Shown: piece by piece, positions 34,877-35,402 of the stretch
How the letters are laid out: the number at the start of each line of letters is the position of its first letter
Position numbering within the stretch: the first letter of the stretch is position 1
Source of the DNA: Oxalobacteraceae bacterium OTU3CAMAD1
GTDB taxonomy: Bacteria; Pseudomonadota; Gammaproteobacteria; Burkholderiales; Burkholderiaceae_D
Direction: 5' to 3'
NCBI GenBank assembly: GCA_024123915.1
Contig: CP099650.1
Location: forward strand, 1,426,001-1,490,000
Length of the DNA stretch: 64,000 bases
The notes under the pieces: generated by a model
The model's database searches: none
What the model was told of the DNA's origin: nothing
Seen by the model: the letters and a program-made list of their open reading frames with translations, nothing else
Program-made: the position numbers and the translations under genes

Positions 34877-35319
34877 TTAACGCCTTTTAAGGGCGAAGTC
34901 GATGGCAAACCGATATCCTTCGATACCCAGTCCGCAGATCGTGCCTAGTGCTATCGCGCTCAGGAATGAGTGGTGGCGAAACGACTCGCGCTGGTAAATA
35001 TTGGAAATGTGCACTTCCACAAACGGAATGGACACCCCTGCCAAGGCGTCGCGCAGGGCCACGCTGGTGTGGGTCAGGCCACCCGGGTTGATGATGATGG
35101 CGTCCACGCCTTCCGTCCTGGCTGCGTGGATGCGGTCGATCAGCGCGCCTTCATGGTTGCTCTGAAAGCAAGACAGCGTTGCGCCGGCCGCCTGGGCCTG
35201 GGCCTGGGCGGCTTGTTCTACGTCGGCCAAAGTGCTGGCGCCGTAGACCTCTGGCTCCCGGGTACCCAGTAAATTGAGGTTGGGACCGTTGAGCAGTAGG
35301 AGGTTTTTTTTTTTGCCAT
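34877..35319 (-). CDS. aroQ: 3-dehydroquinate dehydratase type II, frame broken by an A-run
   Basis: Shikimate-pathway enzyme. The natural start is ATG 35319-35317 (then GCA and an A-run). From there the reading frame is one base out of register with the rest. In the AroQ frame the sequence gives NLLLLNGPNLNLLGTREPEVYG, with the catalytic Arg and Tyr region, and later INPGGLTHTSVALRDAL and VEVHISNIYQRE. That frame meets a stop at 35326 and has no ATG, GTG or TTG before TTG 35230, which would lose the active-site loop. With 12 A or 9 A the ATG would be in frame and the protein 147 or 146 residues, the family length. So this is either a read or assembly error, or slippage is needed. Aside from this it looks intact. 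Confidence 0.85.
35304..35314 (-). repeat. Run of 11 A (minus strand) at the start of aroQ
   Basis: Eleven T on the plus strand (35304-35314) directly follow ATGGC of aroQ as read on the minus strand. Runs of nine or more A are known to cause RNA polymerase slippage and replication slippage. The number 11 puts the start codon out of frame; 9 or 12 would restore it. Confidence 0.95.
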
Positions 35320-35402
35320 GGTTCTAGACCGTTTTCCGCGAAAGTTCCGCATTTTGCCGCCAACTGCGGGCATTGGCAAGAGAAAAAAACTTCTGAATTC
35401 AG

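Follow-up and report, generated by a model that had tools for sequence, protein, structure and literature searches.

The run of 11 A in tssM1 of Citrobacter rodentium gives approximately 20-25% frameshifting, and cDNA from this gene carries 10-15 A (PMC4256274). Disrupted open reading frames (ORFs) that can be rescued by slippage in this way have been named 'pseudo pseudogenes' (Baranov et al. 2005, PMC1088944). Frameshifted poly(A) genes, including dnaX, dnaG, pth and others, are reported from Blochmannia (PMC3017870), frameshifted poly(A) mur genes are reported from Buchnera (PMC6260861), and corrected transcripts amounting to 12-50% were reported for some genes of aphid and ant endosymbionts (PMC5009743).

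The locus described here is the start of aroQ, which encodes a type II 3-dehydroquinate dehydratase, in a window of 64,000 nucleotides (the whole stretch of DNA that was analysed) from a 7.48 Mb genome, G000. Like tssM1, aroQ has exactly 11 A, is broken as written, and would have its frame restored by one additional A in the message. The authors of the tssM1 study report no Shine-Dalgarno-like or structural frameshift signal at that site, and no special structure was found at aroQ either. However, the frameshifting of tssM1 was demonstrated experimentally, with westerns, GFP fusions and mass spectrometry applied to RT-PCR products, whereas that of aroQ is predicted from sequence. Also, both tssM1 products are needed and the run lies far into the gene (PMC4256274), whereas the run in aroQ comes right after the ATG and the unshifted product is a 33-residue nonsense peptide.

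aroQ is like the pseudo pseudogenes in that its ORF is disrupted and slippage on a long A/T run could restore the frame. However, the survey that named them was limited to runs of 9A or 9T (PMC1088944), whereas the run of aroQ is 11 A; in the 800 kb examined, the longest A/T run in conserved ORFs of its genome is a single 9-mer. As in the insect endosymbiont genes, the indel of aroQ lies in a poly(A)/poly(T) run, and the housekeeping gene is otherwise intact and under ordinary selection. The endosymbiont genomes are AT-rich and reduced, and their genes contain more than 100 long tracts (114-153 in three Blochmannia). The genome described here, by contrast, is large, apparently belongs to the Pseudoduganella/Massilia group, and has only aroQ found broken in the part examined. 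No report of slippage in connection with dehydroquinate dehydratase or with Massilia was found in the library searched; the combination of aroQ and a homopolymer appeared there in a Helicobacter mustelae paper. The slippage mechanism itself is already known, and a sole-copy biosynthetic gene in a large genome would be an unusual host for it.

The start of aroQ and its product

The features of the region are as follows.
35317..35319, minus strand: ATG start codon, at the same place as the ATG of 73/73 other genus genomes
35304..35314, minus strand: run of 11 A (11 T on the plus strand) directly after ATG and GC, frame-breaking and slippage-prone
35218..35319, minus strand: 33-codon out-of-frame peptide and stop, the product from the ATG with an unchanged run of 11 A
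35324..35326, minus strand: TAG closing the AroQ frame upstream of the run, as read in the sequence
35228..35230, minus strand: TTG, first ATG/GTG/TTG in the AroQ frame after the TAG, giving a 117-aa product without the GTREPEVYG loop
34877..35305, minus strand: AroQ (type II 3-dehydroquinate dehydratase) frame behind the A run, 142 residues and stop (NCBIfam, PF01220)
34312..34779, minus strand: accB, biotin carboxyl carrier protein, next gene downstream (TIGR00531, 183.6 bits)
32823..34199, minus strand: accC, biotin carboxylase, downstream (TIGR00514, 745.4 bits)
35948-35403: thioredoxin-like gene, TlpA/ResA type, upstream of aroQ, no NCBIfam model at cut-off
35351..35379, minus strand: promoter-like site TTGCCA-17-CAAAAT upstream of aroQ, a consensus match only

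On the minus strand the ATG (35319-35317) is followed by GC, by the 11 A (35314-35304) and then by CCTCCTACTGCTCAACGGT. When translation is read from this ATG with 11 A, the product is MAKKKTSYCSTVPTSIYWVPGSQRSTAPALWPT, 33 codons that end at a stop at 35220-35218. The AroQ frame itself runs TAG(35326-24) AAC CAT GGC AAA AAA AAA AAC CTC CTA CTG CTC AAC GGT, and reading AroQ in frame from the ATG needs 9 or 12 A, 10 or 11 A being out of frame. An earlier sequence-only reading of this DNA had described ATGGC plus eleven A within 35300-35330 and a stop of the AroQ frame at 35326, and had calculated that 9 or 12 A would restore the frame; the positions were borne out when the sequence was read and the arithmetic is correct. 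It had also stated that no usable start exists before the TTG at 35230 and that a start there would delete the active-site loop. The TTG is indeed the first ATG/GTG/TTG after the TAG, and GTREPEVYG is absent from its product. A near-cognate CTG at 35296-35294 lies in the AroQ frame and would retain the loop, and no Shine-Dalgarno-like sequence was seen before it by eye. The region scanned upstream contained one promoter-like site where 0.4 were expected, and this candidate promoter (35379-35351) would place the A run approximately 30-40 nt into the transcript.

The AroQ frame (34877-35317, minus strand) scored 197.7 bits against NCBIfam TIGR01088 (cut-off 169.85) and 232.7 against NF003804 (cut-off 195), and had 39 PDB matches at E<=1e-20, all but one (I3-A6) named dehydroquinases or dehydratases. 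The catalytic lid loop of type II dehydratases carries an Arg and a Tyr, and here this loop, GTREPEVYG, is encoded behind the run. The product from the TTG falls below the cut-offs of TIGR01088 (153 vs 169.85), NF003804 (177.5 vs 195) and NF003806 (147.3 vs 171) and is still above the lower cut-offs of NF003805 and NF003807.

The 3-dehydroquinate dehydratase step is usually essential. In the whole genome of 7,481,272 bases the aroQ of the window is the one match to PF01220, and no match to the type I dehydratase (PF01487) was found. The sequence-only reading had reported no second gene in the window and had called for a search elsewhere; extended to the genome, that search found no second enzyme. 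One aroB-type gene (PF01761) and one aroC (PF01264) are present, so the pathway around the step has been kept. PF01220 is present in 74/74 genus genomes, with a single copy here and two copies in 18/74 (G004, G009, G014, G023, G028, G030, G034, G037, G047, G050, G055, G061, G063, G064, G066, G069, G072 and G073).

When aroQ of this genome was compared with that of G058, dN/dS was 0.045 over the 137 codons from NGPN on (30 synonymous and 5 non-synonymous differences), which is within the range of pairs that do not include G000 (0.034-0.087). In a comparison with seven chosen relatives, 5 synonymous codons and 0 non-synonymous ones were private to G000. The gene behind the run is thus under strongly purifying selection, the indel lies inside a homopolymer of at least 9 A/T, and a change of 1-2 in the run restores the full ORF; all of these are properties by which pseudo pseudogenes are recognized. 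By these codon comparisons aroQ is not an old pseudogene, and any loss of function must be recent because no private non-synonymous codon has appeared in 137.

The run in relatives, in the genome and in the assembly

The ATG of aroQ is in frame in all 73 other genus genomes (loci L082-L154). An uninterrupted ATGGC-A run, searched with a regular expression, was found in 57 of these, with 6 A in 41, 4 in 12, 3 in 2 and 7 in 2, every one of them in frame; in the other 16 a different base interrupts the run, with the ATG likewise in frame. G058 is the relative closest to G000 around the gene (91.3% over 709 bases), and its aroQ starts ATGGC-A6-GCTT. When the comparison was extended to runs close to an LLxNGPN motif in 392 family genomes, at least 8 A were found in six, namely this genome (11 A) and five with 8 A that are all in frame (MAKKI), and none of the 391 other family genomes had more than 8 A. 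The same scan tied to LLx[N/H]GPN found runs of at least 9 A in 1/399 order genomes, this one, and in none of the 398 others; both scans would miss an aroQ with another motif. This suggests that the A run in this lineage has very probably lengthened by five (or six) bases from 6, and the expansion is taken to be real because a simple miscall would hardly produce a step from 6 to 11. Conservation of the run as a programmed slippage site was not found, 11 A being present in this genome only among those scanned.

Two protein searches, of which the best 120 matches each were taken from a database clustered at 90%, yielded 146 proteins, none with a MAKKKN start and none recognised as coming from the same species. 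The nearest proteins (P0001-P0004) were taken as other species because they start with MAKN and carry several substitutions. Another close AroQ relative, P0121 on an 8.5 kb contig, has a predicted start of MADVEQ, at the codon equivalent to TTG 35230, and its C-terminus also differs from this AroQ. The broken N-terminus at the equivalent place is notable, and the contig may have homopolymer errors; P0121 is no evidence either way.

The longest A/T run in the 7.48 Mb genome is 11 and occurs twice, in aroQ and at G000:C1:3560920-3560930. The second of these is directly 3' of a GC hairpin of -19.1 kcal/mol and is terminator-like. The genome contains 39 nine-base A/T windows (29 runs of 9, two of 10 and two of 11), which is an ordinary count for the genus. 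A/T runs of at least 11 number 30 in all and are spread over 26 of the 74 genus genomes. Among the 27 of these with a locus (three had none), 22 have a hairpin (-7.8 kcal/mol or better) immediately before them, the arrangement of intrinsic terminators, and those without such a hairpin are L248, L249, L250, L251 and aroQ. L250 and L251 fall in putative coding ORFs, of 368 and 218 aa respectively. Among the 27 long runs examined, only that of aroQ is shown to be in a conserved gene. L266 (G051:C8:90), counted among the 22, is an odd low-complexity contig end, and in both it and L249 (G004:C11:709472) long homopolymers of G and C lie next to the T runs, which suggests sequence of low quality around them. 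In 479 conserved G000 ORFs (595 kb) there are 36 7-mers, 7 8-mers and one 9-mer of A or T and none longer.

The quality of the assembly was assessed by comparing G000 with G058 over corresponding stretches of 800 kb, the one in G058 containing 484 conserved ORFs (596 kb). The frameshift test used conserved ORFs rather than annotated genes, left aligned pieces of less than 12 residues uncounted and may miss shifts near gene ends; within these bounds it gave frame-change candidates in 16 of the 484 ORFs (17 rows). All of these G000-side candidates, together with one from the first 400 kb, were inspected in alignments, the 16 G058-side candidates being left out. aroQ was the only frameshift confirmed inside a gene, and the other candidates lay before start codons, at gene junctions or at a terminator. 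A/T runs of at least 7 were of equal length in both genomes in 33/36 cases when anchored on G000 and in 33/38 when anchored on G058, and a C14 tract is kept at G000:C1:1303678-1303691. A generally poor assembly was therefore rejected, as the 800 kb comparison shows no general indel problem and no run shortening; this calibration stops short of 12-mers of A, with runs in conserved ORFs reaching 9.

Some of these comparisons led to observations outside aroQ. A 206-aa ORF (1303576-1304193) contains the C14 run in its 5' part; the true start of the ORF may lie downstream of the run, which is a candidate for length variation. One frameshift candidate in the window, at 27316-27689 (a one-base indel at 27554), was rejected because it is a leader and not a gene, with high identity on both sides. 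A 401-base stretch of this leader (window 27226-27660) is 98.5% identical to G058, compared with approximately 91% in the aroQ region, and it precedes a histone-H1-like gene with AAKPAAK repeats (ORF 27617-28633, plus strand). No Rfam match at the gathering score was found in the conserved leader, which is possibly a structured or regulatory RNA leader.

Competing explanations of the 11 A

Our preferred explanation, held tentatively, is that the 11 A are real and that AroQ would be rescued by RNA polymerase slippage. The 6-A stretch behind the ATG would have grown to 11 A in this lineage, and RNA polymerase would slip on it during elongation and produce messages with a spread of A numbers. Those with one A more or two fewer would encode MAKKKNLLLL... 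or MAKKNLLLL..., so that the rescued product would be an intact AroQ with an N-terminal tail two or one residues longer. If the polymerase behaves as it does for tssM1 of C. rodentium, approximately one message in five would be in frame. A slippery A-AAA-AAA is also present in the right phase (GCA AAA AAA AAA ACC from the ATG, continuing as AAC CTC CTA after a -1 shift), and a ribosomal -1 shift on the AAA codons, which the sequence-only reading had omitted, would give the same protein as one added A and would make a minor contribution at most. The sequence downstream of the run showed no stimulatory structure (MFE -32 kcal/mol vs -30.8 for shuffles, sd 3.42, z -0.35, in a test that does not cover pseudoknots). 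This speaks against programmed ribosomal frameshifting and not against polymerase slippage. No regulatory purpose would be required for the length of 11 A, which may be tolerable without one because a slippage-prone run would offset its own frame error. It is very improbable that the start-proximal site is a dosage device in a housekeeping cluster, by which only a fixed share of the messages would yield the sole dehydroquinate dehydratase and accB-accC would perhaps also be affected through early termination of translation.

Rescue by polymerase slippage would account for a broken frame in the only dehydroquinate dehydratase found in a genome that keeps an aroB-type gene and aroC, and it agrees with the low dN/dS and with the absence of private non-synonymous codons. 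It also takes at face value a clean assembly with no undercall bias at A/T runs of at least 7, in a lineage whose 73 other genus genomes are all in frame and whose run very probably did expand from 6. The precedent of tssM1 has the same run length (PMC4256274), and disrupted genes rescued likewise are described in PMC1088944, PMC3017870 and PMC5009743. However, the tract is present in one genome only, so conservation provides no argument for a slippage site, and the longest A/T run of a genome is the likeliest place for a counting error even in a good assembly. E. coli polymerase slips less on poly(A) than on poly(T), and in one in vitro experiment A11 mainly gave deletions (both from PMC6260861), of which a single one (10 A) would leave aroQ out of frame. 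Selection would also favour a fully in-frame allele of 12 A. That the true run is indeed 12 A (9 being less likely), with one A lost in assembly, is a possibility that we rate almost as high. In that case aroQ would be in frame and would code for MAKKKNLLLLNGPN..., which extends the MAKN tail of most relatives by two residues, and the long tract would still be real and slippage-prone and would put some messages out of frame. Long-read basecalls can miscount homopolymers by 1-2 bases, though the newest models do so much less (PMC11466455), and purifying selection and single-copy status fit an intact gene, for which selection would be expected to keep steps of three from 6 A. Against a lost A are the lack of any other confirmed in-gene frameshift among the 484 conserved ORFs, the A/T runs of 7-9 that are not shortened relative to G058, the retained C14 tract, and the absence of a MAKKKN start among the 146 best-matching proteins of the 90%-clustered database. 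Selection favours 12 and the cleanliness of the assembly, at face value, favours 11; the two explanations are nearly level, and this ranking is a matter of judgement rather than computation.

A dead gene and a phase switch are both unlikely. A tract whose length in the DNA switches among 11, 12 and other values, one of which the assembly captured, would be in keeping with the expectation that tracts this long mutate by replication slippage, and populations with variable runs are described in PMC1088944. However, this is the only gene found for its biosynthetic step, no comparable tract was found by the motif scans at aroQ in the 391 other family genomes (more than 8 A) or the 398 other order genomes (at least 9 A), and nothing indicates a benefit of switching, which makes such a tract improbable here. 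Marginally less probable again is a recent loss of function, either inactivation in an aromatic auxotroph or a weak product from TTG 35230 or CTG 35296. The frame is broken as written and the TTG is the first conventional start, but 0 of 137 codons are private and non-synonymous, the TTG product lacks the loop and is under the cut-offs of TIGR01088, NF003804 and NF003806 (though over those of NF003805 and NF003807), and the aroB-type and aroC genes are retained. The sequence-only reading had offered a homopolymer miscount, transcriptional slippage and a phase switch, of which the first two survive and the third has gained no positive support; it had not considered a dead gene, against which the selection data speak.

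Meaning for the organism and its group

Under either leading explanation, the run has very probably expanded from 6 A to a real length of 11-12. If the run is 12 A, a long run has still arisen in a housekeeping gene of the Pseudoduganella/Massilia group, and the case would be a warning to annotators against calling aroQ dead. A genuine run of 11 A would mean that a metabolic gene with a single copy in a 7.48 Mb genome is expressed only by way of polymerase or ribosome error. The papers cited describe this form of expression chiefly for endosymbionts with AT-rich genomes, for insertion sequences and for secretion genes. Such a gene would provide a clean natural test of how far selection on the reading frame weakens when a gene carries a slippage-prone run.
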